A stretch of DNA of 64,000 nt from Rugalucina vietnamica. Taxonomy: Eukaryota; Mollusca; Bivalvia; Lucinida; Lucinidae. Positions within the stretch are counted from its first letter, which is position 1; every line of letters begins with the position of its first letter. Location of the stretch: assembly GCA_964017185.1 (NCBI GenBank), contig OZ024870.1:67332312-67396311 (forward strand). The letters run 5' to 3'. The notes under the pieces are model-generated. The model was not told the DNA's origin, ran no database searches, and was given only the letters and a program-made list of their open reading frames with translations. This document shows, piece by piece, positions 5,174-37,780 of the stretch. The translations under genes and the position numbers were made by a program.

Positions 5174-6490
5174 CACTATAGCTCGATTTTGACCTCAGAT
5201 GCGTCATAAGATCGACAAGTCTACTTAGTAGCATGTGAAGGGATATTCAGACTGTCAAAGTACAAATTTATACTTACTGCGCATGAATGGGGTGCCGTTT
5301 TACTATTTATTCCCTATTTATGGACATCCATAATTCATTTTTGGATATCCAAAATTCATTTTTGGATATCCATAATTCATTTTGGATATCCATAATTCAT
5401 TTTTGGATATCCTAAAATCGATTTATGGATATCCTTAATTTGGCTGAATATTGGATATCCACAAATTGATTTTAGGATATCCTAAAATCGAATTATGGAT
5501 ATCCTAAAATACAATCCTATTTTTGGATATCCATAATTTGATTTAAAGATATCCTAAAATCGGGCTAATATTGGATATCCATAATTCGATTTATGGATAT
5601 CCATAATTCGATTTATGGATATCCATAAATGAATTATGGATATCCTAAAATAGGACTGTATTTTAGGATATCCATAATTCATTTAAGGATATCCTTAAAT
5701 CACAAAAAATGATGTACGTGCCTAAGGGATACAATGATTTCTCCCTAGTCAGAGAATGGAGGCATCCGGTGTGGTTGAATAAACAACTATTTTTTTTCGC
5801 TGGGTTTACATTAACAAATGCGTATTACACAGGAGAAATCATTATTGAAAAGAAATATTTTTAAAAATGAATTATGGATATCCTAAAATCGATTTATGGA
5901 TATCCTTAAATCAGATCATTTAAGGATATCCTAAAATAGAATTATGGATATCCAAAAATCGAATTATGGATAACCTAAATTCAAGATTATTTTTGGATAT
6001 CCTACAATACATTTAAGAATATCCTTAAATAAGCTGATTTAAGGATATCCATAATTCAATTTTTGGATATCCAAAAATCGAATTATGCATATCCATAATT
6101 CATCTTGATTTTTGGATATCCAAAAATGTATTTTAGGATATCCAATCCATAATTCAATTAAGGATATCCATAATTCATTTAAGGATATCCATTTTTCATT
6201 TATGGATATCCATAATTGATTTATGGATATCCATAATTCATTTTAGGATATCCAAAAATATTAATGGATATCCTTAATTATTTTAGGGTATCCATAAATG
6301 AATTAAGGATTATGGATATTCTTAGATAAATTATGGATATCCAAAAATAGGGAATAAAAAGTAAAACGGCACCCCATACGCATGCAACCGAAGTGTAACA
6401 AAAAAACTTGAGGTATTTTGTACTGATTTACCTTTAATGTGCTACCGGCGTAGATCTTGACGCCTCTGAAGTCAAAACAGCGCTATAATG
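5174..6490. mobile_element. Large foldback element with a GGATATCC array
   Basis: Outer arms pair: CACTATAGCTCGATTTTGAC on the left, and on the reverse strand of the right end CATTATAGCGCTGTTTTGAC. An inner pair of arms at 5288 and 6376 (TGGGGTGCCGTTTTACT on each strand) encloses dozens of copies of the self-complementary octamer GGATATCC, separated by AT-rich linkers such as ATAATTCATTT in either orientation. A non-repetitive island sits at about 5705-5860. No ORF is present. It may be one element or one nested inside another. Confidence 0.6.
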
Positions 6491-8302: not shown

Positions 8303-8447
8303 TATTGTTGTAAAAAGTGATCCTTTATTAATATTAATAAAGTATGTTTCATACAAAAAGTATCAATTAACTAAATTAATACATTAACATGTTTGATGGC
8401 CAAGCTAAAGTTAAATATGTTTAATTCCTGTTCAGCAGTTGTCTATC

Positions 8448-9030
8448 GTTTTAAACCACACATTCTAGCAGTTGTCTTTGGTTTTATGCCACACATTGTG
8501 GGGGTTGTGTTTGGTTTTATGCCACACATTGTGGGGGCTGTCTTTGGTTTTATGCCACACATTGTAGGGGGTGTCTTTGGTTTTATGCCACACATTGTGG
8601 GGGTTGTCTTTGGTTTTATGCCACACATTGTGGGTGGTTGTCTTTGGTTTTATGCCACACATTCTGGGGGTTGTCTTTGGTTTTATGCCACACATTCTGG
8701 GGGTTGTCTTTGGTTTTATGCCACACATTCTGGGGGTTTTCTTTGGTTTTATGCTGCACATTCTGGGGTTGTCTTTGGTTTTATGCCACACATTGTGGGG
8801 GTTGTCTTTGGTTTTATGCCACACATTGTGGGGGTTGTCTTTGGTTTTATACCACACATTCTGGGGGTTGTCTTTGGTTTTATGCCACACATTCTGGGGG
8901 TTGTCTTTGGTTTTATGCCACACATTCTGAGGGTTGTCTTTGGTTTTATGCCACACATTGTGGGGGCTGTCTTTGGTTTTATGCTACACATTTGGGGGTT
9001 GTCTTTGGTTTAATGCCACACATTCTGGGG
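8448..9030. repeat. 33-bp minisatellite, about 17-18 units
   Basis: The unit is GGTTTTATGCCACACATT followed by STGGGGGTTGTCTTT, where S is C or G, and occasional units are one base short. Because 33 is a multiple of three and the unit lacks stops in several frames, long ORFs appear on both strands. They are periodic by-products of the repeat (for example GFMPHIVGVVF), not genes. Confidence 0.9.
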
Positions 9031-14852: not shown

Positions 14853-15403
14853 AATTGAACAATCATCGCTTTTAAGCAGTATAACTAAGACACCCTCTTA
14901 GTAAAGTGCCAGAAAATGCAAGATAAAAATTAAGCTATCCAAATAAATCTTAATTAATGTTTGTAAGGTAATATAATGCGCTTTAAGTGAGCCAGGGACA
15001 GTAGATTTCACTGAGTGAGCCTAGCATAAGATATACTTCAGGTATCCTTTGAGAATTAAGACAAAGTGTGGAAACTGATGTGACCAGCTAACTGTATGCA
15101 TAGAAAAAAAACCTGTAGAACTACGCAGTAGTAATAATAGGTTGGTAGCTAGATATACCATAATATTTGTTCTAATTAGCACACATGCTCCAATAAGTGC
15201 GCACCCTGGTCATTTCCGAAACACCCTACACATGCATAAGCGCACCCTGCATGACTAACATATTGATATTTTTTATAATAGCCGATAACCACAAGTTGAT
15301 CGATCACTGGTCCCTGATCGATCATTGGTTGCCTTACGCTACACACCTATGGCCTGATGTTGGTTGGCAAAGGCAATTCCAACTGTTATCAAATTATCCC
15401 TAA

Positions 15404-16052
15404 GGTAGCACTCCACAGTTTCGGGGGAGCGTCTCAGCTTTTTCCGCCAGTCATGTAAATAAACTAAGTTCTGAGCACTTACGCAGTAAGAAATGCAGTG
15501 CAATTCTATTTGAGTGAGCTGTTAACATGTCTAAAAATAGTTTCCAGCTATTACAAGCAACTACAAAGTCCATTTTCAAATTTTGCAACACTGACAATTT
15601 TACCCCACCCCCCTTTTTTGCCGAGCATTTTTCACCAAAATTTGCCTATTTCTGAAACCTCTGGCCAAGTCCATGCAAATGACTGGCCTATAAACCATGC
15701 AGATTCAGTCAGAGGACTTACTTATAAAGACTCTGAGCTACAACTGAATAGCTCCCATCCAGCTACTTTTTCTGATATTTTCTGTCAAAGATAGATACCC
15801 GGAAATTTACCTTTCAAAACACGGCGTTCCATTTCCAGTCACAGTTTCGTATAAAATGCAGCTCAGCCATTGGTTCAAATTTGGGATACAAAAAAGTACC
15901 TTTCTGGCATCTATAAAGCATGCTCAATCAAATAGATCAGCAAAACATGGTCTCTTAAGGGTCAAACTTATTTTAGGGGCCACAGATCAGCCCTACCCTC
16001 TAAAATTCAATATTTTCTCCCACCTCAAAAGTACGAAACTGTGAATGGAACC
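15404..16052. mobile_element. TTAA-flanked MITE-like spacer, copy 1 (left edge of array)
   Basis: The ends are near-inverted repeats: GGTAGCACTCCACAGTTTCG at the left and, on the other strand, GGTTCCATTCACAGTTTCG at the right. The right side abuts TTAA 16053-16056, whereas the outer left side has CTAA. An internal copy of the end motif (GTTCCATTTCCAGTCACAG) lies near 15823, so the element may itself be composite. Short ORFs inside have no credible product. The TTAA target suggests piggyBac or Kolobok ancestry. Confidence 0.75.
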
Positions 16053-17367
16053 TTAAAGCAAAATTTTTTTTTTTTTAATTTAAAGAAAAGACCCTTTTTT
16101 ATGTAAATTGTGACTATTTTATGCAGTATCTAAATGTTTTAGACCATTTCAAAAAGCCAAACTATGGTAATAGTGAGTTGAAACTGCCAGTCAGATCTCC
16201 GCGGCCAGGTCCCTATTTTGACACAATTTTTACAAATGGTCCATTTTCAGTTTTGCTGTCATTTTTAAAGGAGACCACTGACACTGATCATTTATTACCC
16301 TATTTATACAGTAGTCCTCAGATTTCAAATTATACAAGAAAGAAGCTATATACTATGTCTCATTAAGTCACAAGATGTCTCTGTTTCTGCATACCCCTTG
16401 AAACATGTACTATTTCAGTACAATTTGATTTTTTTTGGTCAATATTGACAATATTTGTCACCCTATTTGTGTTTTTATGTTTCATTTATAGTTTCAGCCA
16501 TTTTGAAAACAAATTTTAGCTGAAACTGTTTAGACTGGATGGGCAGAATGCAAACAACTATTGTCTCTTTACCATTACCCTCAAATTCAAAGGGAGATAA
16601 TTACAGGATCTCTGAGGACATAACATTTTTGAAATGGTCTCAGCAGCCTGTACTTGATGCCAGTTTCCATTTCTTTGTATTTAATTTTAGAAAATAGGCA
16701 AGTAAATAAAAATAATGTGAATTTGTATTGCATAAACTGATTTTCGTTTGTATATTTTGTATATAACTATGTCTCGGGGCAGAAACAAAGACACACAAAT
16801 GTCAGAAGACTAATGACACCTGAAGGTAGCCTCTAGAAGCAGAAGTGGCAGCAGCAGTTGCACCTGTTATGTAAAATCTGTCTGTTGTCTTGTTCTCACA
16901 GCAATTTGATGGTCAGTAGTCTTTCCACAATATCGCCTGGTAAATAGAGACCTAAAAGAATAAGGAGAGAAAAAATTCTATCCATCTTGAATGCTTCTGC
17001 AGTATACCCAAATGAAACAAATAAACACTTCTTGGTTACCATGGCAACTGCATCTTATCTACCAAATTAGATAGTATCAGGTCAAAAATATAAACAATGA
17101 TGATAAGGTGGTGTGTTTCAGTTGTTCTTTGTGAGTTGTATAGTGCAGAAGTTGTTAAAGAAGGAATTTATACATATTGACTATTCACGGCTTAATTTTT
17201 ATTTGTTGCTGCTGATAACTGTTTTTGCTGTTATTGTTACAATTGTCATCTTGTTTTACACTGCTTTTGTTAATGGAACTTTTGTTCAGTGGCATTTTGC
17301 AAGCAAAAGAATTCAGATAAACTAATTGGATTTTACTGACTCTTGTGTTTTTACTTTTGTTACCAAA

Positions 17368-19269
17368 ATGTCTTCCAGAAGGAAAAGTTACAAGCAGAAC
17401 AAAAAAAGATGGTGTACTCAATTTAAGAAAGGTCATAACTTTAACAAGGAGTATTCTTCAAAGGGTACAGAACTACTTTCTGAACCACAAATAAATACTG
17501 CCTGTACTTACCCTGAAATCAAAACTGTTAGGCCAAGTGCTGAGGAATACTTAGACGCTTGTAGAATTGTAGATAGTGATGAGACGGTGAATCATGAACT
17601 GCTCTGTCCAACTCGGCTCAGACCTAAAACGAAACAATCAGAACTTGATTACACGAAATCAAATGAGGAGACAAAAGAAGAAAATGTAATAGTGAATTTT
17701 GACAAGTTGTCTTCCTTAGTTGCTGGGTTCCAGCATACATGTAAAAGGCCTTTTCCTGTAGTGAAATTGGAGAAAAGAAAGGGTCTCTGTATAACTGCAA
17801 GAACATGTTGCAAGAATTGTAAGTTTAATTCACAGCCTTGTGAGTTATTCACTTCCATAAAGAAGAAAAGAGGACCCACAGCAGGCTCTCTAAATGATGC
17901 ATTGGCAATACCTGTGCTTAAATCTAAAATGGGTGTCACTGACATACGATACTTATTAAGTTGCATAAATGTCCAGTCACCAGCACCAAGTGGACTCCAC
18001 AGAAAAGTCTGTCAAGCTGCGGATGAGATGGTTAACTTGAACTCGGCTTCCATGTCTGATAATCAACGGTATGTGGAAAGGGTCATGGAAGTGTCTGGAA
18101 GAAAGCATGAAGTGAATGTGGAAACTGACTTGTCTTTTAACAACAGGCCACAGTCAGGCTATGAAGCAGCAACACAATCCTTCTGCCCCATGGTGGAGCA
18201 AGATACTGACAAGAAGCTTGTTCTTTCAATGGCTACAGCCAATAAACTGTGCAGCAAAAAGAACTGTAACCATCAAAACATTAAGTGCAAAAAGAACTTT
18301 GGTACTGCTGAGAGCATTTCCTCAAGTGAGTCTAAACTTGTGCATCAAAACTTAGAAAGTATTGATGGCAGTGGTATAGTAAAAGTAAAGTCCCTGACAT
18401 CAGATGCAAGCACTCAGATTGATAAAAGTTTGCGCAGCTACGCACAAGTGAAGAGACGAAATATTCCACATTTCAAGTGTTTTGTTCATAAACTACGCAC
18501 CGTTCAGAAACATGTAAGGTACATAAAATTATCAAGTAGACTTCCAGGTTGTGATAAAGAAATATATTCAATCAGACTTTCTTCAGCAGTTAGAGCTAGA
18601 GTCCGCCTTGAGCTAGTAAGAGTAAAAAAGTTTTACAAGACAGCTCCTATGTTTGTCGCATATGCTGAAATTGCAGTCAAAAATATTTTACACTGTTTCT
18701 CTGGTAATCACATAAATTGTATAAGAAATTCAATGGTTTGTAATGCACATCTTCTTGACTCATACACCACAAATCATTTACCATATAACAAACATCTTGA
18801 ACTGAACAAGACGGACATGCTTCAGTTGCAGAGAGTGCTCGATAGTGACTTTTCACGAGAAAATTTGCGGAAGATTTCTCGTCTCTCAACAACTAACCGA
18901 TCTGAGAGCTTGCACCACAGGGTCTTTACTTACGCACCAAAATGTACAGTGTGGAGTAGAAATTTCACAGGCTTATGTCACTCCGCTGTTCATTCTTCTA
19001 GCGTAGGAACTGGACAGTCGTCGCTATCTCTAGCCGCAAGAGTTGGAATCCGCTTTAAATATACTGACCCTCTCTTCAAGCATATGAAGGCCTTAGATGC
19101 TACAAACAGTTACCATTTAAAGAGGAAATCCTCTCAGCAGTACAAACTTTCACGACATCTTGCAAGAAAGCGAAGATGCAGCCAAAGAATAAAAGATAAC
19201 TCAGTATACGCAGGTGCAGATGCAAGTGTGTCCAATGAGCATGCATATGGAATAAACATTAACAAGTGA
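17368..19269 (+). CDS. Mutator/Kolobok-like DDE transposase, copy 1
   Basis: A 633-aa protein predicted to cut and join transposon ends in the nucleus. I start it at ATG 17368 (MSSRRKSYKQNKKRWC), which has A at -3; the open frame reaches 42 bp further but without ATG. Visible landmarks: a basic N-terminus, a Cys cluster at 141-158 (CITARTCCKNCKF), candidate catalytic residues D254 (ETDLSFNN), D346 (LTSDAST) and E513 (NRSESLHH), a Cys/His insert before E513 (CFSGNHINC...MVC, 443-458), the block VWSRNFTGLCHSAVHSSS (528-545), and a Lys/Arg-rich tail. From memory these blocks match metazoan Mutator-like transposase-domain proteins related to Kolobok, whose elements duplicate TTAA, as seen at both unit ends. 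Exact superfamily is less certain than the DDE call. The frame is intact. Confidence 0.75.
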   Translation: MSSRRKSYKQNKKRWCTQFKKGHNFNKEYSSKGTELLSEPQINTACTYPEIKTVRPSAEEYLDACRIVDSDETVNHELLCPTRLRPKTKQSELDYTKSNEETKEENVIVNFDKLSSLVAGFQHTCKRPFPVVKLEKRKGLCITARTCCKNCKFNSQPCELFTSIKKKRGPTAGSLNDALAIPVLKSKMGVTDIRYLLSCINVQSPAPSGLHRKVCQAADEMVNLNSASMSDNQRYVERVMEVSGRKHEVNVETDLSFNNRPQSGYEAATQSFCPMVEQDTDKKLVLSMATANKLCSKKNCNHQNIKCKKNFGTAESISSSESKLVHQNLESIDGSGIVKVKSLTSDASTQIDKSLRSYAQVKRRNIPHFKCFVHKLRTVQKHVRYIKLSSRLPGCDKEIYSIRLSSAVRARVRLELVRVKKFYKTAPMFVAYAEIAVKNILHCFSGNHINCIRNSMVCNAHLLDSYTTNHLPYNKHLELNKTDMLQLQRVLDSDFSRENLRKISRLSTTNRSESLHHRVFTYAPKCTVWSRNFTGLCHSAVHSSSVGTGQSSLSLAARVGIRFKYTDPLFKHMKALDATNSYHLKRKSSQQYKLSRHLARKRRCSQRIKDNSVYAGADASVSNEHAYGININK

Positions 19270-19286
19270 TACTACCTTCAGTGGTG

Positions 19287-19664
19287 TCACAGTATACAGC
19301 TTCTGTAGCCACAATGGCCAATACATTCTCCATTAAGAATGCATGTTTTTCGTTTATTATTAGTGTCATGTGGTTCTAATGACAGATGTTCAAAATTTAT
19401 ACAGCTTTTATTGTGGCATAAATGAGAAACATGCAAATTTTTCAAGTCGATAAATCCACTTCTGATGTAATATACTAGCCGATGAGCCCGAACTTTCACC
19501 CTTTTACCCCGAAACTGAAACTGAATCATGCCATAACCGTCCCTATCTTTCGATCCCTTCCAAACATAACAATTTTCAGTAATCAAAGTGTGTCTCCGAA
19601 TCACTCTATTACAATATTGCACTTCGGTTTCACTAAAACGGGTGCTGAACACCACTTTTGCCAT
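19287..19664 (-). CDS. His-Me finger (HNH, I-PpoI-like) endonuclease, copy 1
   Basis: A 125-aa protein encoded convergently to the transposase, stop codons 17 bp apart. The N-terminal half (YVWKGSKDRDGYGMIQF then GKRVKVRAHRLVYY) resembles phage-type HNH proteins. The core VSHLCHNKSCINFEHL carries the expected catalytic His81 and zinc ligands C83, C88, H93. N102/N103 are candidates for the metal-binding Asn. A second Cys/His cluster follows (C108, C114, H117, C118, C123), the arrangement seen in the zinc-binding homing endonuclease I-PpoI. It should cleave DNA with a divalent metal. Being inside every unit suggests a role in the element's mobility, or a homing gene that settled in it. All key residues are intact. 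Confidence 0.75.
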   Translation of the reverse strand: MAKVVFSTRFSETEVQYCNRVIRRHTLITENCYVWKGSKDRDGYGMIQFQFRGKRVKVRAHRLVYYIRSGFIDLKNLHVSHLCHNKSCINFEHLSLEPHDTNNKRKTCILNGECIGHCGYRSCIL

Positions 19665-20009
19665 TATAGGGAGAAATGTACTGGCTTATGTGCTTCAGTT
19701 TTGTCTGGAAAAAGCAAAAATGCATTTAACCAGTATAAAAAACATCTAAAATGACATAACTTCACTCTACGAAAGAAAAAAATATAAGCAGAGCTTGATG
19801 AGAATGGCCAAAATGACTTTAAAAATTGTTCGCAAAAACCGAGAAATTCCAGTTATTTCCCTTGCCAGGGGATGAAAATTTTAAATTTGCAATAGCATAC
19901 TTATTTACCACTCTATATCCTGGAAACTTCTACACAATCATTGTGAAAGGATCAATTTCAGATTTGAAACATGCTAGTTTGGATCCCTGAACAATGACTT
20001 TTCCTTTAA

Positions 20010-20658
20010 GGTAGCACTCCACAGTTTCGGGGGAGCGTCTCAGCTTTTTCCGCCAGTCATGTAAATAAACTAAGTTCTGAGCACTTACGCAGTAAGAAAT
20101 GCAGTGCAATTCTATTTGAGTGAGCTGTTAACATGTCTAAAAATAGTTTCCAGCTATTACAAGCAACTACAAAGTCCATTTTCAAATTTTGCAACACTGA
20201 CAATTTTACCCCACCCCCCTTTTTTGCCGAGCATTTTTCACCAAAATTTGCCTATTTCTGAAACCTCTGGCCAAGTCCATGCAAATGACTGGCCTATAAA
20301 CCATGCAGATTCAGTCAGAGGACTTACTTATAAAGACTCTGAGCTACAACTGAATAGCTCCCATCCAGCTACTTTTTCTGATATTTTCTGTCAAAGATAG
20401 ATACCCGGAAATTTACCTTTCAAAACACGGCGTTCCATTTCCAGTCACAGTTTCGTATAAAATGCAGCTCAGCCATTGGTTCAAATTTGGGATACAAAAA
20501 AGTACCTTTCTGGCATCTATAAAGCATGCTCAATCAAATAGATCAGCAAAACATGGTCTCTTAAGGGTCAAACTTATTTTAGGGGCCACAGATCAGCCCT
20601 ACCCTCTAAAATTCAATATTTTCTCCCACCTCAAAAGTACGAAACTGTGAATGGAACC
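20010..20658. mobile_element. TTAA spacer element, copy 2
   Basis: Flanked by intact TTAA on both sides (20006-20009, 20659-20662), between units 1 and 2. No difference from copy 1 was seen. Confidence 0.75.
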
Positions 20659-21973
20659 TTAAAGCAAAATTTTTTTTTTTTTAATTTAAAGAAAAGACCC
20701 TTTTTTATGTAAATTGTGACTATTTTATGCAGTATCTAAATGTTTTAGACCATTTCAAAAAGCCAAACTATGGTAATAGTGAGTTGAAACTGCCAGTCAG
20801 ATCTCCGCGGCCAGGTCCCTATTTTGACACAATTTTTACAAATGGTCCATTTTCAGTTTTGCTGTCATTTTTAAAGGAGACCACTGACACTGATCATTTA
20901 TTACCCTATTTATACAGTAGTCCTCAGATTTCAAATTATACAAGAAAGAAGCTATATACTATGTCTCATTAAGTCACAAGATGTCTCTGTTTCTGCATAC
21001 CCCTTGAAACATGTACTATTTCAGTACAATTTGATTTTTTTTGGTCAATATTGACAATATTTGTCACCCTATTTGTGTTTTTATGTTTCATTTATAGTTT
21101 CAGCCATTTTGAAAACAAATTTTAGCTGAAACTGTTTAGACTGGATGGGCAGAATGCAAACAACTATTGTCTCTTTACCATTACCCTCAAATTCAAAGGG
21201 AGATAATTACAGGATCTCTGAGGACATAACATTTTTGAAATGGTCTCAGCAGCCTGTACTTGATGCCAGTTTCCATTTCTTTGTATTTAATTTTAGAAAA
21301 TAGGCAAGTAAATAAAAATAATGTGAATTTGTATTGCATAAACTGATTTTCGTTTGTATATTTTGTATATAACTATGTCTCGGGGCAGAAACAAAGACAC
21401 ACAAATGTCAGAAGACTAATGACACCTGAAGGTAGCCTCTAGAAGCAGAAGTGGCAGCAGCAGTTGCACCTGTTATGTAAAATCTGTCTGTTGTCTTGTT
21501 CTCACAGCAATTTGATGGTCAGTAGTCTTTCCACAATATCGCCTGGTAAATAGAGACCTAAAAGAATAAGGAGAGAAAAAATTCTATCCATCTTGAATGC
21601 TTCTGCAGTATACCCAAATGAAACAAATAAACACTTCTTGGTTACCATGGCAACTGCATCTTATCTACCAAATTAGATAGTATCAGGTCAAAAATATAAA
21701 CAATGATGATAAGGTGGTGTGTTTCAGTTGTTCTTTGTGAGTTGTATAGTGCAGAAGTTGTTAAAGAAGGAATTTATACATATTGACTATTCACGGCTTA
21801 ATTTTTATTTGTTGCTGCTGATAACTGTTTTTGCTGTTATTGTTACAATTGTCATCTTGTTTTACACTGCTTTTGTTAATGGAACTTTTGTTCAGTGGCA
21901 TTTTGCAAGCAAAAGAATTCAGATAAACTAATTGGATTTTACTGACTCTTGTGTTTTTACTTTTGTTACCAAA

Positions 21974-23875
21974 ATGTCTTCCAGAAGGAAAAGTTACAAG
22001 CAGAACAAAAAAAGATGGTGTACTCAATTTAAGAAAGGTCATAACTTTAACAAGGAGTATTCTTCAAAGGGTACAGAACTACTTTCTGAACCACAAATAA
22101 ATACTGCCTGTACTTACCCTGAAATCAAAACTGTTAGGCCAAGTGCTGAGGAATACTTAGACGCTTGTAGAATTGTAGATAGTGATGAGACGGTGAATCA
22201 TGAACTGCTCTGTCCAACTCGGCTCAGACCTAAAACGAAACAATCAGAACTTGATTACACGAAATCAAATGAGGAGACAAAAGAAGAAAATGTAATAGTG
22301 AATTTTGACAAGTTGTCTTCCTTAGTTGCTGGGTTCCAGCATACATGTAAAAGGCCTTTTCCTGTAGTGAAATTGGAGAAAAGAAAGGGTCTCTGTATAA
22401 CTGCAAGAACATGTTGCAAGAATTGTAAGTTTAATTCACAGCCTTGTGAGTTATTCACTTCCATAAAGAAGAAAAGAGGACCCACAGCAGGCTCTCTAAA
22501 TGATGCATTGGCAATACCTGTGCTTAAATCTAAAATGGGTGTCACTGACATACGATACTTATTAAGTTGCATAAATGTCCAGTCACCAGCACCAAGTGGA
22601 CTCCACAGAAAAGTCTGTCAAGCTGCGGATGAGATGGTTAACTTGAACTCGGCTTCCATGTCTGATAATCAACGGTATGTGGAAAGGGTCATGGAAGTGT
22701 CTGGAAGAAAGCATGAAGTGAATGTGGAAACTGACTTGTCTTTTAACAACAGGCCACAGTCAGGCTATGAAGCAGCAACACAATCCTTCTGCCCCATGGT
22801 GGAGCAAGATACTGACAAGAAGCTTGTTCTTTCAATGGCTACAGCCAATAAACTGTGCAGCAAAAAGAACTGTAACCATCAAAACATTAAGTGCAAAAAG
22901 AACTTTGGTACTGCTGAGAGCATTTCCTCAAGTGAGTCTAAACTTGTGCATCAAAACTTAGAAAGTATTGATGGCAGTGGTATAGTAAAAGTAAAGTCCC
23001 TGACATCAGATGCAAGCACTCAGATTGATAAAAGTTTGCGCAGCTACGCACAAGTGAAGAGACGAAATATTCCACATTTCAAGTGTTTTGTTCATAAACT
23101 ACGCACCGTTCAGAAACATGTAAGGTACATAAAATTATCAAGTAGACTTCCAGGTTGTGATAAAGAAATATATTCAATCAGACTTTCTTCAGCAGTTAGA
23201 GCTAGAGTCCGCCTTGAGCTAGTAAGAGTAAAAAAGTTTTACAAGACAGCTCCTATGTTTGTCGCATATGCTGAAATTGCAGTCAAAAATATTTTACACT
23301 GTTTCTCTGGTAATCACATAAATTGTATAAGAAATTCAATGGTTTGTAATGCACATCTTCTTGACTCATACACCACAAATCATTTACCATATAACAAACA
23401 TCTTGAACTGAACAAGACGGACATGCTTCAGTTGCAGAGAGTGCTCGATAGTGACTTTTCACGAGAAAATTTGCGGAAGATTTCTCGTCTCTCAACAACT
23501 AACCGATCTGAGAGCTTGCACCACAGGGTCTTTACTTACGCACCAAAATGTACAGTGTGGAGTAGAAATTTCACAGGCTTATGTCACTCCGCTGTTCATT
23601 CTTCTAGCGTAGGAACTGGACAGTCGTCGCTATCTCTAGCCGCAAGAGTTGGAATCCGCTTTAAATATACTGACCCTCTCTTCAAGCATATGAAGGCCTT
23701 AGATGCTACAAACAGTTACCATTTAAAGAGGAAATCCTCTCAGCAGTACAAACTTTCACGACATCTTGCAAGAAAGCGAAGATGCAGCCAAAGAATAAAA
23801 GATAACTCAGTATACGCAGGTGCAGATGCAAGTGTGTCCAATGAGCATGCATATGGAATAAACATTAACAAGTGA
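21974..23875 (+). CDS. Mutator/Kolobok-like DDE transposase, copy 2
   Basis: 633 aa, identical in translation to copy 1, with the catalytic D, D and E all present. It converges on nuclease copy 2. Confidence 0.75.
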   Translation: MSSRRKSYKQNKKRWCTQFKKGHNFNKEYSSKGTELLSEPQINTACTYPEIKTVRPSAEEYLDACRIVDSDETVNHELLCPTRLRPKTKQSELDYTKSNEETKEENVIVNFDKLSSLVAGFQHTCKRPFPVVKLEKRKGLCITARTCCKNCKFNSQPCELFTSIKKKRGPTAGSLNDALAIPVLKSKMGVTDIRYLLSCINVQSPAPSGLHRKVCQAADEMVNLNSASMSDNQRYVERVMEVSGRKHEVNVETDLSFNNRPQSGYEAATQSFCPMVEQDTDKKLVLSMATANKLCSKKNCNHQNIKCKKNFGTAESISSSESKLVHQNLESIDGSGIVKVKSLTSDASTQIDKSLRSYAQVKRRNIPHFKCFVHKLRTVQKHVRYIKLSSRLPGCDKEIYSIRLSSAVRARVRLELVRVKKFYKTAPMFVAYAEIAVKNILHCFSGNHINCIRNSMVCNAHLLDSYTTNHLPYNKHLELNKTDMLQLQRVLDSDFSRENLRKISRLSTTNRSESLHHRVFTYAPKCTVWSRNFTGLCHSAVHSSSVGTGQSSLSLAARVGIRFKYTDPLFKHMKALDATNSYHLKRKSSQQYKLSRHLARKRRCSQRIKDNSVYAGADASVSNEHAYGININK

Positions 23876-23892
23876 TACTACCTTCAGTGGTG

Positions 23893-24270
23893 TCACAGTA
23901 TACAGCTTCTGTAGCCACAATGGCCAATACATTCTCCATTAAGAATGCATGTTTTTCGTTTATTATTAGTGTCATGTGGTTCTAATGACAGATGTTCAAA
24001 ATTTATACAGCTTTTATTGTGGCATAAATGAGAAACATGCAAATTTTTCAAGTCGATAAATCCACTTCTGATGTAATATACTAGCCGATGAGCCCGAACT
24101 TTCACCCTTTTACCCCGAAACTGAAACTGAATCATGCCATAACCGTCCCTATCTTTCGATCCCTTCCAAACATAACAATTTTCAGTAATCAAAGTGTGTC
24201 TCCGAATCACTCTATTACAATATTGCACTTCGGTTTCACTAAAACGGGTGCTGAACACCACTTTTGCCAT
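23893..24270 (-). CDS. His-Me finger endonuclease, copy 2
   Basis: 125 aa, identical to copy 1, with His81 and the Cys/His zinc ligands intact. Confidence 0.75.
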   Translation of the reverse strand: MAKVVFSTRFSETEVQYCNRVIRRHTLITENCYVWKGSKDRDGYGMIQFQFRGKRVKVRAHRLVYYIRSGFIDLKNLHVSHLCHNKSCINFEHLSLEPHDTNNKRKTCILNGECIGHCGYRSCIL

Positions 24271-24615
24271 TATAGGGAGAAATGTACTGGCTTATGTGCT
24301 TCAGTTTTGTCTGGAAAAAGCAAAAATGCATTTAACCAGTATAAAAAACATCTAAAATGACATAACTTCACTCTACGAAAGAAAAAAATATAAGCAGAGC
24401 TTGATGAGAATGGCCAAAATGACTTTAAAAATTGTTCGCAAAAACCGAGAAATTCCAGTTATTTCCCTTGCCAGGGGATGAAAATTTTAAATTTGCAATA
24501 GCATACTTATTTACCACTCTATATCCTGGAAACTTCTACACAATCATTGTGAAAGGATCAATTTCAGATTTGAAACATGCTAGTTTGGATCCCTGAACAA
24601 TGACTTTTCCTTTAA

Positions 24616-25264
24616 GGTAGCACTCCACAGTTTCGGGGGAGCGTCTCAGCTTTTTCCGCCAGTCATGTAAATAAACTAAGTTCTGAGCACTTACGCAGTA
24701 AGAAATGCAGTGCAATTCTATTTGAGTGAGCTGTTAACATGTCTAAAAATAGTTTCCAGCTATTACAAGCAACTACAAAGTCCATTTTCAAATTTTGCAA
24801 CACTGACAATTTTACCCCACCCCCCTTTTTTGCCGAGCATTTTTCACCAAAATTTGCCTATTTCTGAAACCTCTGGCCAAGTCCATGCAAATGACTGGCC
24901 TATAAACCATGCAGATTCAGTCAGAGGACTTACTTATAAAGACTCTGAGCTACAACTGAATAGCTCCCATCCAGCTACTTTTTCTGATATTTTCTGTCAA
25001 AGATAGATACCCGGAAATTTACCTTTCAAAACACGGCGTTCCATTTCCAGTCACAGTTTCGTATAAAATGCAGCTCAGCCATTGGTTCAAATTTGGGATA
25101 CAAAAAAGTACCTTTCTGGCATCTATAAAGCATGCTCAATCAAATAGATCAGCAAAACATGGTCTCTTAAGGGTCAAACTTATTTTAGGGGCCACAGATC
25201 AGCCCTACCCTCTAAAATTCAATATTTTCTCCCACCTCAAAAGTACGAAACTGTGAATGGAACC
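24616..25264. mobile_element. TTAA spacer element, copy 3
   Basis: 649 bp with TTAA on both sides, between units 2 and 3. Confidence 0.75.
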
Positions 25265-26579
25265 TTAAAGCAAAATTTTTTTTTTTTTAATTTAAAGAAA
25301 AGACCCTTTTTTATGTAAATTGTGACTATTTTATGCAGTATCTAAATGTTTTAGACCATTTCAAAAAGCCAAACTATGGTAATAGTGAGTTGAAACTGCC
25401 AGTCAGATCTCCGCGGCCAGGTCCCTATTTTGACACAATTTTTACAAATGGTCCATTTTCAGTTTTGCTGTCATTTTTAAAGGAGACCACTGACACTGAT
25501 CATTTATTACCCTATTTATACAGTAGTCCTCAGATTTCAAATTATACAAGAAAGAAGCTATATACTATGTCTCATTAAGTCACAAGATGTCTCTGTTTCT
25601 GCATACCCCTTGAAACATGTACTATTTCAGTACAATTTGATTTTTTTTGGTCAATATTGACAATATTTGTCACCCTATTTGTGTTTTTATGTTTCATTTA
25701 TAGTTTCAGCCATTTTGAAAACAAATTTTAGCTGAAACTGTTTAGACTGGATGGGCAGAATGCAAACAACTATTGTCTCTTTACCATTACCCTCAAATTC
25801 AAAGGGAGATAATTACAGGATCTCTGAGGACATAACATTTTTGAAATGGTCTCAGCAGCCTGTACTTGATGCCAGTTTCCATTTCTTTGTATTTAATTTT
25901 AGAAAATAGGCAAGTAAATAAAAATAATGTGAATTTGTATTGCATAAACTGATTTTCGTTTGTATATTTTGTATATAACTATGTCTCGGGGCAGAAACAA
26001 AGACACACAAATGTCAGAAGACTAATGACACCTGAAGGTAGCCTCTAGAAGCAGAAGTGGCAGCAGCAGTTGCACCTGTTATGTAAAATCTGTCTGTTGT
26101 CTTGTTCTCACAGCAATTTGATGGTCAGTAGTCTTTCCACAATATCGCCTGGTAAATAGAGACCTAAAAGAATAAGGAGAGAAAAAATTCTATCCATCTT
26201 GAATGCTTCTGCAGTATACCCAAATGAAACAAATAAACACTTCTTGGTTACCATGGCAACTGCATCTTATCTACCAAATTAGATAGTATCAGGTCAAAAA
26301 TATAAACAATGATGATAAGGTGGTGTGTTTCAGTTGTTCTTTGTGAGTTGTATAGTGCAGAAGTTGTTAAAGAAGGAATTTATACATATTGACTATTCAC
26401 GGCTTAATTTTTATTTGTTGCTGCTGATAACTGTTTTTGCTGTTATTGTTACAATTGTCATCTTGTTTTACACTGCTTTTGTTAATGGAACTTTTGTTCA
26501 GTGGCATTTTGCAAGCAAAAGAATTCAGATAAACTAATTGGATTTTACTGACTCTTGTGTTTTTACTTTTGTTACCAAA

Positions 26580-28481
26580 ATGTCTTCCAGAAGGAAAAGT
26601 TACAAGCAGAACAAAAAAAGATGGTGTACTCAATTTAAGAAAGGTCATAACTTTAACAAGGAGTATTCTTCAAAGGGTACAGAACTACTTTCTGAACCAC
26701 AAATAAATACTGCCTGTACTTACCCTGAAATCAAAACTGTTAGGCCAAGTGCTGAGGAATACTTAGACGCTTGTAGAATTGTAGATAGTGATGAGACGGT
26801 GAATCATGAACTGCTCTGTCCAACTCGGCTCAGACCTAAAACGAAACAATCAGAACTTGATTACACGAAATCAAATGAGGAGACAAAAGAAGAAAATGTA
26901 ATAGTGAATTTTGACAAGTTGTCTTCCTTAGTTGCTGGGTTCCAGCATACATGTAAAAGGCCTTTTCCTGTAGTGAAATTGGAGAAAAGAAAGGGTCTCT
27001 GTATAACTGCAAGAACATGTTGCAAGAATTGTAAGTTTAATTCACAGCCTTGTGAGTTATTCACTTCCATAAAGAAGAAAAGAGGACCCACAGCAGGCTC
27101 TCTAAATGATGCATTGGCAATACCTGTGCTTAAATCTAAAATGGGTGTCACTGACATACGATACTTATTAAGTTGCATAAATGTCCAGTCACCAGCACCA
27201 AGTGGACTCCACAGAAAAGTCTGTCAAGCTGCGGATGAGATGGTTAACTTGAACTCGGCTTCCATGTCTGATAATCAACGGTATGTGGAAAGGGTCATGG
27301 AAGTGTCTGGAAGAAAGCATGAAGTGAATGTGGAAACTGACTTGTCTTTTAACAACAGGCCACAGTCAGGCTATGAAGCAGCAACACAATCCTTCTGCCC
27401 CATGGTGGAGCAAGATACTGACAAGAAGCTTGTTCTTTCAATGGCTACAGCCAATAAACTGTGCAGCAAAAAGAACTGTAACCATCAAAACATTAAGTGC
27501 AAAAAGAACTTTGGTACTGCTGAGAGCATTTCCTCAAGTGAGTCTAAACTTGTGCATCAAAACTTAGAAAGTATTGATGGCAGTGGTATAGTAAAAGTAA
27601 AGTCCCTGACATCAGATGCAAGCACTCAGATTGATAAAAGTTTGCGCAGCTACGCACAAGTGAAGAGACGAAATATTCCACATTTCAAGTGTTTTGTTCA
27701 TAAACTACGCACCGTTCAGAAACATGTAAGGTACATAAAATTATCAAGTAGACTTCCAGGTTGTGATAAAGAAATATATTCAATCAGACTTTCTTCAGCA
27801 GTTAGAGCTAGAGTCCGCCTTGAGCTAGTAAGAGTAAAAAAGTTTTACAAGACAGCTCCTATGTTTGTCGCATATGCTGAAATTGCAGTCAAAAATATTT
27901 TACACTGTTTCTCTGGTAATCACATAAATTGTATAAGAAATTCAATGGTTTGTAATGCACATCTTCTTGACTCATACACCACAAATCATTTACCATATAA
28001 CAAACATCTTGAACTGAACAAGACGGACATGCTTCAGTTGCAGAGAGTGCTCGATAGTGACTTTTCACGAGAAAATTTGCGGAAGATTTCTCGTCTCTCA
28101 ACAACTAACCGATCTGAGAGCTTGCACCACAGGGTCTTTACTTACGCACCAAAATGTACAGTGTGGAGTAGAAATTTCACAGGCTTATGTCACTCCGCTG
28201 TTCATTCTTCTAGCGTAGGAACTGGACAGTCGTCGCTATCTCTAGCCGCAAGAGTTGGAATCCGCTTTAAATATACTGACCCTCTCTTCAAGCATATGAA
28301 GGCCTTAGATGCTACAAACAGTTACCATTTAAAGAGGAAATCCTCTCAGCAGTACAAACTTTCACGACATCTTGCAAGAAAGCGAAGATGCAGCCAAAGA
28401 ATAAAAGATAACTCAGTATACGCAGGTGCAGATGCAAGTGTGTCCAATGAGCATGCATATGGAATAAACATTAACAAGTGA
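26580..28481 (+). CDS. Mutator/Kolobok-like DDE transposase, copy 3
   Basis: Intact 633-codon frame, identical in translation to copy 1. Confidence 0.75.
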   Translation: MSSRRKSYKQNKKRWCTQFKKGHNFNKEYSSKGTELLSEPQINTACTYPEIKTVRPSAEEYLDACRIVDSDETVNHELLCPTRLRPKTKQSELDYTKSNEETKEENVIVNFDKLSSLVAGFQHTCKRPFPVVKLEKRKGLCITARTCCKNCKFNSQPCELFTSIKKKRGPTAGSLNDALAIPVLKSKMGVTDIRYLLSCINVQSPAPSGLHRKVCQAADEMVNLNSASMSDNQRYVERVMEVSGRKHEVNVETDLSFNNRPQSGYEAATQSFCPMVEQDTDKKLVLSMATANKLCSKKNCNHQNIKCKKNFGTAESISSSESKLVHQNLESIDGSGIVKVKSLTSDASTQIDKSLRSYAQVKRRNIPHFKCFVHKLRTVQKHVRYIKLSSRLPGCDKEIYSIRLSSAVRARVRLELVRVKKFYKTAPMFVAYAEIAVKNILHCFSGNHINCIRNSMVCNAHLLDSYTTNHLPYNKHLELNKTDMLQLQRVLDSDFSRENLRKISRLSTTNRSESLHHRVFTYAPKCTVWSRNFTGLCHSAVHSSSVGTGQSSLSLAARVGIRFKYTDPLFKHMKALDATNSYHLKRKSSQQYKLSRHLARKRRCSQRIKDNSVYAGADASVSNEHAYGININK

Positions 28482-28498
28482 TACTACCTTCAGTGGTG

Positions 28499-28876
28499 TC
28501 ACAGTATACAGCTTCTGTAGCCACAATGGCCAATACATTCTCCATTAAGAATGCATGTTTTTCGTTTATTATTAGTGTCATGTGGTTCTAATGACAGATG
28601 TTCAAAATTTATACAGCTTTTATTGTGGCATAAATGAGAAACATGCAAATTTTTCAAGTCGATAAATCCACTTCTGATGTAATATACTAGCCGATGAGCC
28701 CGAACTTTCACCCTTTTACCCCGAAACTGAAACTGAATCATGCCATAACCGTCCCTATCTTTCGATCCCTTCCAAACATAACAATTTTCAGTAATCAAAG
28801 TGTGTCTCCGAATCACTCTATTACAATATTGCACTTCGGTTTCACTAAAACGGGTGCTGAACACCACTTTTGCCAT
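28499..28876 (-). CDS. His-Me finger endonuclease, copy 3
   Basis: Intact 125-codon frame, convergent with transposase copy 3. Confidence 0.75.
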   Translation of the reverse strand: MAKVVFSTRFSETEVQYCNRVIRRHTLITENCYVWKGSKDRDGYGMIQFQFRGKRVKVRAHRLVYYIRSGFIDLKNLHVSHLCHNKSCINFEHLSLEPHDTNNKRKTCILNGECIGHCGYRSCIL

Positions 28877-29221
28877 TATAGGGAGAAATGTACTGGCTTA
28901 TGTGCTTCAGTTTTGTCTGGAAAAAGCAAAAATGCATTTAACCAGTATAAAAAACATCTAAAATGACATAACTTCACTCTACGAAAGAAAAAAATATAAG
29001 CAGAGCTTGATGAGAATGGCCAAAATGACTTTAAAAATTGTTCGCAAAAACCGAGAAATTCCAGTTATTTCCCTTGCCAGGGGATGAAAATTTTAAATTT
29101 GCAATAGCATACTTATTTACCACTCTATATCCTGGAAACTTCTACACAATCATTGTGAAAGGATCAATTTCAGATTTGAAACATGCTAGTTTGGATCCCT
29201 GAACAATGACTTTTCCTTTAA

Positions 29222-29870
29222 GGTAGCACTCCACAGTTTCGGGGGAGCGTCTCAGCTTTTTCCGCCAGTCATGTAAATAAACTAAGTTCTGAGCACTTAC
29301 GCAGTAAGAAATGCAGTGCAATTCTATTTGAGTGAGCTGTTAACATGTCTAAAAATAGTTTCCAGCTATTACAAGCAACTACAAAGTCCATTTTCAAATT
29401 TTGCAACACTGACAATTTTACCCCACCCCCCTTTTTTGCCGAGCATTTTTCACCAAAATTTGCCTATTTCTGAAACCTCTGGCCAAGTCCATGCAAATGA
29501 CTGGCCTATAAACCATGCAGATTCAGTCAGAGGACTTACTTATAAAGACTCTGAGCTACAACTGAATAGCTCCCATCCAGCTACTTTTTCTGATATTTTC
29601 TGTCAAAGATAGATACCCGGAAATTTACCTTTCAAAACACGGCGTTCCATTTCCAGTCACAGTTTCGTATAAAATGCAGCTCAGCCATTGGTTCAAATTT
29701 GGGATACAAAAAAGTACCTTTCTGGCATCTATAAAGCATGCTCAATCAAATAGATCAGCAAAACATGGTCTCTTAAGGGTCAAACTTATTTTAGGGGCCA
29801 CAGATCAGCCCTACCCTCTAAAATTCAATATTTTCTCCCACCTCAAAAGTACGAAACTGTGAATGGAACC
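29222..29870. mobile_element. TTAA spacer element, copy 4
   Basis: 649 bp with TTAA on both sides, between units 3 and 4. It is the last spacer before the junction that lacks one. Confidence 0.75.
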
Positions 29871-31185
29871 TTAAAGCAAAATTTTTTTTTTTTTAATTTA
29901 AAGAAAAGACCCTTTTTTATGTAAATTGTGACTATTTTATGCAGTATCTAAATGTTTTAGACCATTTCAAAAAGCCAAACTATGGTAATAGTGAGTTGAA
30001 ACTGCCAGTCAGATCTCCGCGGCCAGGTCCCTATTTTGACACAATTTTTACAAATGGTCCATTTTCAGTTTTGCTGTCATTTTTAAAGGAGACCACTGAC
30101 ACTGATCATTTATTACCCTATTTATACAGTAGTCCTCAGATTTCAAATTATACAAGAAAGAAGCTATATACTATGTCTCATTAAGTCACAAGATGTCTCT
30201 GTTTCTGCATACCCCTTGAAACATGTACTATTTCAGTACAATTTGATTTTTTTTGGTCAATATTGACAATATTTGTCACCCTATTTGTGTTTTTATGTTT
30301 CATTTATAGTTTCAGCCATTTTGAAAACAAATTTTAGCTGAAACTGTTTAGACTGGATGGGCAGAATGCAAACAACTATTGTCTCTTTACCATTACCCTC
30401 AAATTCAAAGGGAGATAATTACAGGATCTCTGAGGACATAACATTTTTGAAATGGTCTCAGCAGCCTGTACTTGATGCCAGTTTCCATTTCTTTGTATTT
30501 AATTTTAGAAAATAGGCAAGTAAATAAAAATAATGTGAATTTGTATTGCATAAACTGATTTTCGTTTGTATATTTTGTATATAACTATGTCTCGGGGCAG
30601 AAACAAAGACACACAAATGTCAGAAGACTAATGACACCTGAAGGTAGCCTCTAGAAGCAGAAGTGGCAGCAGCAGTTGCACCTGTTATGTAAAATCTGTC
30701 TGTTGTCTTGTTCTCACAGCAATTTGATGGTCAGTAGTCTTTCCACAATATCGCCTGGTAAATAGAGACCTAAAAGAATAAGGAGAGAAAAAATTCTATC
30801 CATCTTGAATGCTTCTGCAGTATACCCAAATGAAACAAATAAACACTTCTTGGTTACCATGGCAACTGCATCTTATCTACCAAATTAGATAGTATCAGGT
30901 CAAAAATATAAACAATGATGATAAGGTGGTGTGTTTCAGTTGTTCTTTGTGAGTTGTATAGTGCAGAAGTTGTTAAAGAAGGAATTTATACATATTGACT
31001 ATTCACGGCTTAATTTTTATTTGTTGCTGCTGATAACTGTTTTTGCTGTTATTGTTACAATTGTCATCTTGTTTTACACTGCTTTTGTTAATGGAACTTT
31101 TGTTCAGTGGCATTTTGCAAGCAAAAGAATTCAGATAAACTAATTGGATTTTACTGACTCTTGTGTTTTTACTTTTGTTACCAAA

Positions 31186-33087
31186 ATGTCTTCCAGAAGG
31201 AAAAGTTACAAGCAGAACAAAAAAAGATGGTGTACTCAATTTAAGAAAGGTCATAACTTTAACAAGGAGTATTCTTCAAAGGGTACAGAACTACTTTCTG
31301 AACCACAAATAAATACTGCCTGTACTTACCCTGAAATCAAAACTGTTAGGCCAAGTGCTGAGGAATACTTAGACGCTTGTAGAATTGTAGATAGTGATGA
31401 GACGGTGAATCATGAACTGCTCTGTCCAACTCGGCTCAGACCTAAAACGAAACAATCAGAACTTGATTACACGAAATCAAATGAGGAGACAAAAGAAGAA
31501 AATGTAATAGTGAATTTTGACAAGTTGTCTTCCTTAGTTGCTGGGTTCCAGCATACATGTAAAAGGCCTTTTCCTGTAGTGAAATTGGAGAAAAGAAAGG
31601 GTCTCTGTATAACTGCAAGAACATGTTGCAAGAATTGTAAGTTTAATTCACAGCCTTGTGAGTTATTCACTTCCATAAAGAAGAAAAGAGGACCCACAGC
31701 AGGCTCTCTAAATGATGCATTGGCAATACCTGTGCTTAAATCTAAAATGGGTGTCACTGACATACGATACTTATTAAGTTGCATAAATGTCCAGTCACCA
31801 GCACCAAGTGGACTCCACAGAAAAGTCTGTCAAGCTGCGGATGAGATGGTTAACTTGAACTCGGCTTCCATGTCTGATAATCAACGGTATGTGGAAAGGG
31901 TCATGGAAGTGTCTGGAAGAAAGCATGAAGTGAATGTGGAAACTGACTTGTCTTTTAACAACAGGCCACAGTCAGGCTATGAAGCAGCAACACAATCCTT
32001 CTGCCCCATGGTGGAGCAAGATACTGACAAGAAGCTTGTTCTTTCAATGGCTACAGCCAATAAACTGTGCAGCAAAAAGAACTGTAACCATCAAAACATT
32101 AAGTGCAAAAAGAACTTTGGTACTGCTGAGAGCATTTCCTCAAGTGAGTCTAAACTTGTGCATCAAAACTTAGAAAGTATTGATGGCAGTGGTATAGTAA
32201 AAGTAAAGTCCCTGACATCAGATGCAAGCACTCAGATTGATAAAAGTTTGCGCAGCTACGCACAAGTGAAGAGACGAAATATTCCACATTTCAAGTGTTT
32301 TGTTCATAAACTACGCACCGTTCAGAAACATGTAAGGTACATAAAATTATCAAGTAGACTTCCAGGTTGTGATAAAGAAATATATTCAATCAGACTTTCT
32401 TCAGCAGTTAGAGCTAGAGTCCGCCTTGAGCTAGTAAGAGTAAAAAAGTTTTACAAGACAGCTCCTATGTTTGTCGCATATGCTGAAATTGCAGTCAAAA
32501 ATATTTTACACTGTTTCTCTGGTAATCACATAAATTGTATAAGAAATTCAATGGTTTGTAATGCACATCTTCTTGACTCATACACCACAAATCATTTACC
32601 ATATAACAAACATCTTGAACTGAACAAGACGGACATGCTTCAGTTGCAGAGAGTGCTCGATAGTGACTTTTCACGAGAAAATTTGCGGAAGATTTCTCGT
32701 CTCTCAACAACTAACCGATCTGAGAGCTTGCACCACAGGGTCTTTACTTACGCACCAAAATGTACAGTGTGGAGTAGAAATTTCACAGGCTTATGTCACT
32801 CCGCTGTTCATTCTTCTAGCGTAGGAACTGGACAGTCGTCGCTATCTCTAGCCGCAAGAGTTGGAATCCGCTTTAAATATACTGACCCTCTCTTCAAGCA
32901 TATGAAGGCCTTAGATGCTACAAACAGTTACCATTTAAAGAGGAAATCCTCTCAGCAGTACAAACTTTCACGACATCTTGCAAGAAAGCGAAGATGCAGC
33001 CAAAGAATAAAAGATAACTCAGTATACGCAGGTGCAGATGCAAGTGTGTCCAATGAGCATGCATATGGAATAAACATTAACAAGTGA
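31186..33087 (+). CDS. Mutator/Kolobok-like DDE transposase, copy 4
   Basis: Intact 633-codon frame, identical in translation to copy 1. Confidence 0.75.
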   Translation: MSSRRKSYKQNKKRWCTQFKKGHNFNKEYSSKGTELLSEPQINTACTYPEIKTVRPSAEEYLDACRIVDSDETVNHELLCPTRLRPKTKQSELDYTKSNEETKEENVIVNFDKLSSLVAGFQHTCKRPFPVVKLEKRKGLCITARTCCKNCKFNSQPCELFTSIKKKRGPTAGSLNDALAIPVLKSKMGVTDIRYLLSCINVQSPAPSGLHRKVCQAADEMVNLNSASMSDNQRYVERVMEVSGRKHEVNVETDLSFNNRPQSGYEAATQSFCPMVEQDTDKKLVLSMATANKLCSKKNCNHQNIKCKKNFGTAESISSSESKLVHQNLESIDGSGIVKVKSLTSDASTQIDKSLRSYAQVKRRNIPHFKCFVHKLRTVQKHVRYIKLSSRLPGCDKEIYSIRLSSAVRARVRLELVRVKKFYKTAPMFVAYAEIAVKNILHCFSGNHINCIRNSMVCNAHLLDSYTTNHLPYNKHLELNKTDMLQLQRVLDSDFSRENLRKISRLSTTNRSESLHHRVFTYAPKCTVWSRNFTGLCHSAVHSSSVGTGQSSLSLAARVGIRFKYTDPLFKHMKALDATNSYHLKRKSSQQYKLSRHLARKRRCSQRIKDNSVYAGADASVSNEHAYGININK

Positions 33088-33104
33088 TACTACCTTCAGT
33101 GGTG

Positions 33105-33482
33105 TCACAGTATACAGCTTCTGTAGCCACAATGGCCAATACATTCTCCATTAAGAATGCATGTTTTTCGTTTATTATTAGTGTCATGTGGTTCTAATGA
33201 CAGATGTTCAAAATTTATACAGCTTTTATTGTGGCATAAATGAGAAACATGCAAATTTTTCAAGTCGATAAATCCACTTCTGATGTAATATACTAGCCGA
33301 TGAGCCCGAACTTTCACCCTTTTACCCCGAAACTGAAACTGAATCATGCCATAACCGTCCCTATCTTTCGATCCCTTCCAAACATAACAATTTTCAGTAA
33401 TCAAAGTGTGTCTCCGAATCACTCTATTACAATATTGCACTTCGGTTTCACTAAAACGGGTGCTGAACACCACTTTTGCCAT
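33105..33482 (-). CDS. His-Me finger endonuclease, copy 4
   Basis: Intact 125-codon frame; the nearest nuclease copy to the spacer-less junction. Confidence 0.75.
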   Translation of the reverse strand: MAKVVFSTRFSETEVQYCNRVIRRHTLITENCYVWKGSKDRDGYGMIQFQFRGKRVKVRAHRLVYYIRSGFIDLKNLHVSHLCHNKSCINFEHLSLEPHDTNNKRKTCILNGECIGHCGYRSCIL

Positions 33483-33823
33483 TATAGGGAGAAATGTACT
33501 GGCTTATGTGCTTCAGTTTTGTCTGGAAAAAGCAAAAATGCATTTAACCAGTATAAAAAACATCTAAAATGACATAACTTCACTCTACGAAAGAAAAAAA
33601 TATAAGCAGAGCTTGATGAGAATGGCCAAAATGACTTTAAAAATTGTTCGCAAAAACCGAGAAATTCCAGTTATTTCCCTTGCCAGGGGATGAAAATTTT
33701 AAATTTGCAATAGCATACTTATTTACCACTCTATATCCTGGAAACTTCTACACAATCATTGTGAAAGGATCAATTTCAGATTTGAAACATGCTAGTTTGG
33801 ATCCCTGAACAATGACTTTTCCT

Positions 33824-33827
33824 TTAA
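33824..33827. other. Empty TTAA site between units 4 and 5
   Basis: Here the sequence reads CTTTTCC TTTAA AGCAAAATT, while every other unit-unit junction has the 649-bp element plus a second TTAA. The difference is exactly 653 bp, with no bases gained or lost. This is the product expected from precise excision of a TTAA element, or a site that was never filled. Confidence 0.9.
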
Positions 33828-37040: not shown

Positions 37041-37057
37041 TACTACCTTCAGTGGTG

Positions 37058-37435: not shown

Positions 37436-37780
37436 TATAGGGAGAAATGTACTGGCTTATGTGCTTCAGTTTTGTCTGGAAAAAGCAAAAATGCATTTAA
37501 CCAGTATAAAAAACATCTAAAATGACATAACTTCACTCTACGAAAGAAAAAAATATAAGCAGAGCTTGATGAGAATGGCCAAAATGACTTTAAAAATTGT
37601 TCGCAAAAACCGAGAAATTCCAGTTATTTCCCTTGCCAGGGGATGAAAATTTTAAATTTGCAATAGCATACTTATTTACCACTCTATATCCTGGAAACTT
37701 CTACACAATCATTGTGAAAGGATCAATTTCAGATTTGAAACATGCTAGTTTGGATCCCTGAACAATGACTTTTCCTTTAA

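Follow-up and report, generated by a model that had tools for sequence, protein, structure and literature searches.

The 64,000-bp stretch of the Rugalucina vietnamica genome analysed here (contig OZ024870.1, positions 67,332,312 to 67,396,311; hereafter the window) carries a tandem array of a DNA transposon that combines a DDE transposase gene with a gene for an I-PpoI-like nuclease. The array is a composite multimer built from long terminal direct repeats (LTDRs) and an interior segment (INT), and it comprises eight INTs, eight LTDRs and one INT-INT junction. We regard its identity as a KolobokP multimer as nearly certain; judged by the features described for KolobokP (Kojima & Bao 2022, Mob DNA 13:24, PMC9587614), the element very probably belongs to the type with LTDRs of ~660 bp. 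The original prediction, which was made from the sequence alone, knew of no described animal element with this pair of genes, but a DNA transposon with a DDE transposase and a convergent I-PpoI-like nuclease had been published as KolobokP (PMC9587614), and the pairing, in print since 2022, is hence not new. New here, and of modest added value, are seven families with both genes in one genome and a test of the co-divergence of the two genes.

A repeat search of the window returned two alternating repeats rather than one. By exact matching, a 649-bp LTDR and a 3957-bp INT, the latter including a TTAA at each end, are each present in eight copies with zero differences. Together they span 15404-52247 in the order LTDR-INT four times, followed by INT-LTDR four times. 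The LTDR starts with GGTAGC, ends with GGAACC and has imperfect terminal inverted repeats (TIRs) of ~20 bp (GGTAGCACTCCACAGTTTCG / GGTTCCATTCACAGTTTCG). Both outer sides of the array carry the target site duplication TAA (15401-15403 and 52248-52250), as flank comparison revealed: ...CCCTAA precedes the first GGTAGC, and the last GGAACC is followed by TAAATAAA. At the INT-INT junction (33824-33827), one LTDR and one of two TTAAs are absent and exactly one TTAA is kept.

All units lie on the plus strand. The LTDRs occupy 15404-16052, 20010-20658, 24616-25264, 29222-29870, 37781-38429, 42387-43035, 46993-47641 and, at the right end of the array, 51599-52247, while INTs 1 to 8 occupy 16053-20009, 20659-24615, 25265-29221, 29871-33827, 33824-37780, 38430-42386, 43036-46992 and 47642-51598, the first TTAA of INT 5 being common to INT 4. 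Inside LTDR 1, an additional internal copy of the terminal repeat (TTCCAGTCACAGTTTCGTA) was observed at 15833-15851, inverted relative to 16032-16050 near the LTDR 3' end and separated from it by 180 nt; it could be a trace of a ~450-bp LTDR becoming a ~660-bp one.

This architecture changes the extent of the element. The original prediction had taken the 3949-bp stretch at 16057-20005, bordered by TTAA at 16053-16056 and 20006-20009, as the complete transposon. Given that exact matching gives alternating 649-bp and 3957-bp repeats, this stretch is the INT minus its TTAAs: the TTAA borders were borne out and the unit recurs eightfold, but it is the interior of an element that ends in 649-bp LTDRs. 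A cut-and-paste transposon whose ends are the two TTAAs of 16053-20009, alternating with an unrelated 649-bp satellite would agree with the TTAA flanking each INT and with the ability of one INT to abut another directly. However, it is the 649-bp repeat and not the INT that carries TIRs, has 5'-GG...CC-3' termini and is flanked by the outer target duplication, and other families in this genome contain LTDR-INT-LTDR monomers, with LTDRs alone elsewhere. Borders around the INT only were rejected as contradicted by these LTDR-borne features, and we consider such a transposon exceedingly improbable. The perfect identity of all eight units could also suggest an assembly artefact in which one or two real units were multiplied. 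This is very unlikely, given the unique flanks with a matching TAA on both sides, the single INT-INT junction, the comparable arrays in two other families, a dimer elsewhere in the genome with variants of its own, and the multimers known from other species (PMC9587614).

Each INT holds two intact convergent genes with stop codons 17 bp apart, as had been predicted. In INT 1, the transposase open reading frame (ORF) lies at 17368-19269 on the plus strand (633 aa) and the nuclease ORF at 19287-19664 on the minus strand (125 aa). The transposase matches PF20700 (Mutator-like transposase; E 2.7e-35, 122.4 bits against the Pfam cut-off of 26.5). The nuclease matches PF05551 (zinc loop of His-Me homing endonucleases; E 7.1e-11, 42.9 bits against the Pfam cut-off of 27), as well as the I-PpoI chains in the PDB (E 4.6e-4 with the single sequence, 5.6e-5 with a 13-sequence profile). 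Because the bit scores exceed the Pfam cut-offs and the I-PpoI chains are matched, the homology of both genes is beyond chance, and the earlier assignments to a Mutator/Kolobok-like DDE transposase and an I-PpoI-like His-Me nuclease stand. No PDB chain was matched by sequence with the transposase profile. Protein relatives of both genes were drawn from genome and metagenome sources; scans of collections of viral contigs and of genome contigs returned none. In the other INTs, gene positions follow by offset, with transposase (+) and nuclease (-) at 21974-23875 and 23893-24270 (INT 2, where both genes were also matched in genome searches), 26580-28481 and 28499-28876 (INT 3), 31186-33087 and 33105-33482 (INT 4), 35139-37040 and 37058-37435 (INT 5), 39745-41646 and 41664-42041 (INT 6), 44351-46252 and 46270-46647 (INT 7), and 48957-50858 and 50876-51253 (INT 8).

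The candidate catalytic residues of the transposase, D254, D346 and E513, do not vary across 27 aligned sequences picked from 81 found, the window's own among them. The same holds for C371/H374 (C/DxxH), the zinc finger C443/H448/C451/C458 and the CCHC finger C295/C300/H302/C307. Among the seven transposase families of this genome, the DDE triad and C/DxxH are kept in all, and C443, H448 and the second Cys of the CCHC finger in six each. In the nuclease, S80, H81, H93, E97 and N102 align to the catalytic and conserved residues S97, H98, H110, E114 and N119 of I-PpoI. H81, E97 and N102 are invariant in 13/13 nuclease sequences found (window's included), S80 and H93 are conserved in at least 90%, and all five residues are retained in 7/7 families of this genome. 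I-PpoI, a group I intron homing endonuclease of Physarum, is the closest solved relative of the window nuclease, which differs in being shorter and in residing in a DNA transposon instead of an intron. Nucleases of the I-PpoI type, with a His-Cys box, cleave a specific site of their own and leave 4-base 3' overhangs.

The element agrees with the published description of KolobokP in architecture as well as in gene content. KolobokP has LTDRs of ~450 or ~660 bp, each bearing TIRs; its ends are RR...YY, its target duplications measure 3-5 bp without strong preference, and it occurs in 228 families from 7 animal phyla (PMC9587614). Its transposase is marked by C/DxxH and by two zinc fingers, one preceding the last E and the other, of CCHC type, following the first D, and its copies include solo LTDRs, (LTDR-INT)n-LTDR multimers and INT-INT junctions keeping one 4-bp core (PMC9587614). 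In the window's family, the LTDR measures 649 bp (460-652 bp in six other families) and has short TIRs of its own, the ends are GG...CC, the target duplications are TAA in the window array and TTA in the dimer, the transposase has the complete signature, and the His-Me nuclease lies 3' of the transposase on the complementary strand. The multimer and the INT-INT junction are present too, and solo LTDRs were found as diverged copies only. One such copy of the window's family (L039, G000:C11:38229118-38229756) has bases 58-411 inverted between correctly oriented ends.

Nothing fundamental separates the window element from KolobokP, of which it is an added example with eight identical INTs. The other Kolobok lineages (Kol0, KolobokE, KolobokH and KolobokD) share the Kolobok-type DDE transposase and ends with the window element, but have other second proteins (KolX, lambda-type exonuclease, RecQ helicase and DEDDh exonuclease) and no LTDR architecture (PMC9587614). 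Bacterial composite transposons flanked by insertion sequences (IS), such as IS26 units, likewise have direct-repeat ends that, like LTDRs, are possibly mobile themselves, but KolobokP carries its genes in the interior and not in the end repeats (PMC9587614). Among the papers listed by literature searches, no second description of the transposase/nuclease pair was found besides PMC9587614, and the term KolobokP leads to one paper. In two further articles, long non-coding RNA sequences resembling Mytilus Kolobok elements are reported with KolobokP cited (PMC12750733), and counts of Kolobok elements are given (PMC10294476).

We searched the whole assembly (1.09 Gb, 47 contigs) for further copies. 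The transposase search gave at least 74 matches, and given that 70 of 102 candidates were scored, further families may exist. Besides the window, 17 stretches covering 14 loci were examined, including the dimer at C2:65.46 Mb, which adds two copies to the eight that the window's family (A) has in the window. The nuclease profile matched all but one of the 17 stretches, and one match among the 16 was weak. Seven families, A to G, were found with a full-length open transposase frame, and in each of them a convergent nuclease lies between paired LTDRs of 460-652 bp. Relatives that consistently lack the nuclease, named in the original prediction as evidence that would speak against the pairing, were therefore not seen among these seven families. 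A whole-genome search with PF05551 returned 39 matches, 37 of which adjoin a transposase match or fall within an array on C4; the other two are at C10:42357076 and C2:71348180.

The two genes have been co-inherited in these seven families. FastTree topologies of nuclease and transposase are identical, with one nuclease split at a support of 0.49, and pairwise identities of the two proteins are correlated (r 0.85; 5 of 5040 label permutations reach this value in an exact Mantel test), across families with transposase identities down to ~20%. Additionally, six nuclease frames (families A, B and C, the near copy C2, H and the C10 orphan) have proportions of synonymous differences (pS) of 0.73-0.92, with synonymous sites near saturation, and proportions of nonsynonymous differences (pN) of 0.20-0.45 in 14 of 15 pairs, which indicates that the nuclease has been under purifying selection.

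These results bear on whether the nuclease is a passenger, that is, a homing gene resident in a Kolobok element that persists by gene conversion between copies and aids neither transposition nor array growth. Its closest solved relative, a group I intron homing endonuclease, would fit this explanation, as would the apparently free-standing open nuclease frame at C10:42357076. However, a homing gene would be expected to jump between families, whereas the nuclease is present and convergent in all seven open families and its topology equals that of the transposase, so that we consider a passenger unlikely. The C10 frame itself (L042:1706-2137; G000:C10:42356905-42357336) is open over 144 codons, keeps the catalytic residues and shares 46% amino acid identity with family C. 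In 20.5 kb around it, no KolobokP transposase match better than E 0.07 was detected, and no flanking direct repeat was present among the pairs listed. It is either a relic or a free-standing nuclease. About 1 kb downstream of it, an ORF was judged by eye to be ORF1 of a long interspersed nuclear element (LINE).

Units agree within an array and differ between arrays. The dimer, 1.9 Mb from the window array, has TTA and not TAA as its target duplication; its three LTDRs have one substitution in common and its two INTs four, none of which is found in the window's eight units, and the substitution in its transposase is silent. Given this homogeneity within and distinctness between arrays, the data fit an origin of each array from one amplified unit, whether it was multiplied in place by unequal crossover or had already been multiplied when it inserted. 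Families E and G are likewise present as arrays, with seven transposase matches at a spacing of 4231 and ten at ~4981 with one wider gap, respectively. At G000:C4:68178499-68231791 (ends L036 and L037), an array of a KolobokP family other than that of the window contains 12 nuclease matches against 10 for the transposase, most of them at a spacing of ~4981, and two of the nuclease matches carry a stop. The seven-unit array of family E (L032, G000:C12) has ~134 bp of INT and no LTDR at its 3' end, indicating that it is truncated at one end.

Several observations weigh against parts of our interpretation. Only three of the seven families of this genome retain the His at the aligned CCHC position of the transposase. 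Profile and structure checks point to the folds and active sites originally proposed, but the predicted transposase model is middling (mean predicted local distance difference test, pLDDT, 71.6), with residues 508-513, including E513, below 50, and the nuclease fold match to I-PpoI is narrow, barely above the next rows (I-HmuI 7.0, SMAD MH1 6.6); DNA cutting by the window nuclease is a predicted activity. The 4-bp TTAA target duplication of classic Kolobok elements is missing, the outer duplications being TAA and TTA (3 bp), and TTAA is found at the LTDR/INT borders instead of the outer ends. Given that duplications of 3-5 bp are described for KolobokP (PMC9587614), this bears on the classic superfamily trait and not on KolobokP. 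The KolobokP assignment was made from the features described for KolobokP. Linkage of transposase and nuclease is not absolute, given the C10 frame with no transposase relic within 20.5 kb; among the 14 loci, a broken transposase copy (L025) had no nuclease match and a further locus (L030) had a weak one only (E 0.0032). Finally, the array pattern is compatible both with unequal crossover in place and with the insertion of a ready-made multimer.

Cooperation between the transposase and the nuclease is an inference, here as in PMC9587614. The transposase would probably recognise the LTDR ends and move the complete element or one LTDR by itself; movement of a lone LTDR would give rise to solo LTDRs and to an INT-INT junction with one TTAA. 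It is quite possible, although less likely than not, that the nuclease makes its cut inside an LTDR or at the LTDR edge and that repair from a misaligned sister LTDR adds LTDR-INT units in place. Such gain of units corresponds to the induced unequal crossover of Kojima & Bao (PMC9587614), and would as such explain arrays grown from one unit.

I-PpoI leaves 4-base TTAA overhangs, and abutted LTDR ends have already been proposed as a possible nuclease target (PMC9587614). We scored all borders of the seven families in both orientations against the I-PpoI recognition site (CTCTCTTAAGGTAGC; PMC6294500). The INT/LTDR border of family A, TTCCTTTAAGGTAGC, equals this site at 12 of 15 bases and is the single best of 10542 scored positions of the element. 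Best-border mismatches for families A to G were 3, 6, 4, 7, 9, 4 and 6; as an I-PpoI-like site, the border ranked first or tied for first within its element in three families (A, C and F) and was outscored in the other four (B, D, E and G). Random positions of the same element equalled the border with P 0.001, 0.021, 0.002, 0.131, 0.729, 0.001 and 0.032 (A to G). Part of this match is trivial, because a TTAA-like core and purines belong to Kolobok ends in any case. With the core and the first two end bases fixed, P became 0.042, 0.168, 0.214, 0.623, 0.961, 0.010 and 0.268 (A to G; Fisher p 0.027 over the seven families, whose LTDR ends share a common origin), and scrambled sites that kept the core fitted as well in 128 of 2000 cases. 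The unit of family A contains two exact 10-mers of the I-PpoI site, where at least one occurred in 108 and at least two in 23 of 2000 dinucleotide shuffles, and the half-site tetramer TAGC is among the 7 best-fitting of 256 tetramers for the 14 LTDR ends. Evidence for I-PpoI-like sites at LTDR borders beyond the common TTAA-GG core is thus marginal, and we treat these sites as a lead only.

These scores leave room for an explanation in which the LTDR ends serve as I-PpoI-like half-sites and cleavage by the nuclease falls in the 4-bp core at the LTDR borders, which is TTAA in this family. Such cleavage would release LTDRs precisely, leaving an INT-INT junction with one core, or open LTDR-LTDR junctions of circles. 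The 12/15 match in family A, the top ranking of the borders in A, C and F, and the junction at 33824, which retains exactly one TTAA, would agree with such cutting. However, much of the match reduces to the TTAA-like core and RR ends, as the core-fixed and scrambled tests indicate, the D and E borders are unlike the I-PpoI site (7 and 9 mismatches), and the idea arose from family A, itself among the families scored, with LTDR ends related by descent; we regard it as rather unlikely. Quite doubtful is its extension, in which the nuclease would act as a junction enzyme that reads LTDR ends as half-sites, cleaves the 4-bp core where LTDR meets INT (or where LTDRs abut in a circle), releases LTDRs precisely and seeds break-driven tandem growth. 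If true, such a junction enzyme would amount to a homing endonuclease that has come to amplify the very element hosting it.

Outside the array, the window contains AT-rich repeats at 5295-6310, built on the palindrome GGATATCC with a period of ~21-22 and higher-order forms, and a 33-bp tandem repeat with 18 copies at 8438-9030, across which several long open frames run. An open frame at 59797-60192 resembles the SPX domain of an XPR1-type phosphate exporter, and we take it to be a likely host exon. No Rfam match was found in the window.

A homing nuclease beside a transposase, together with long identical arrays, makes these elements a natural test case for copy-number drive by a selfish nuclease via break-induced repair. 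The addition of this genome consists of seven two-gene families and young arrays, which are suited to mapping the nuclease target.

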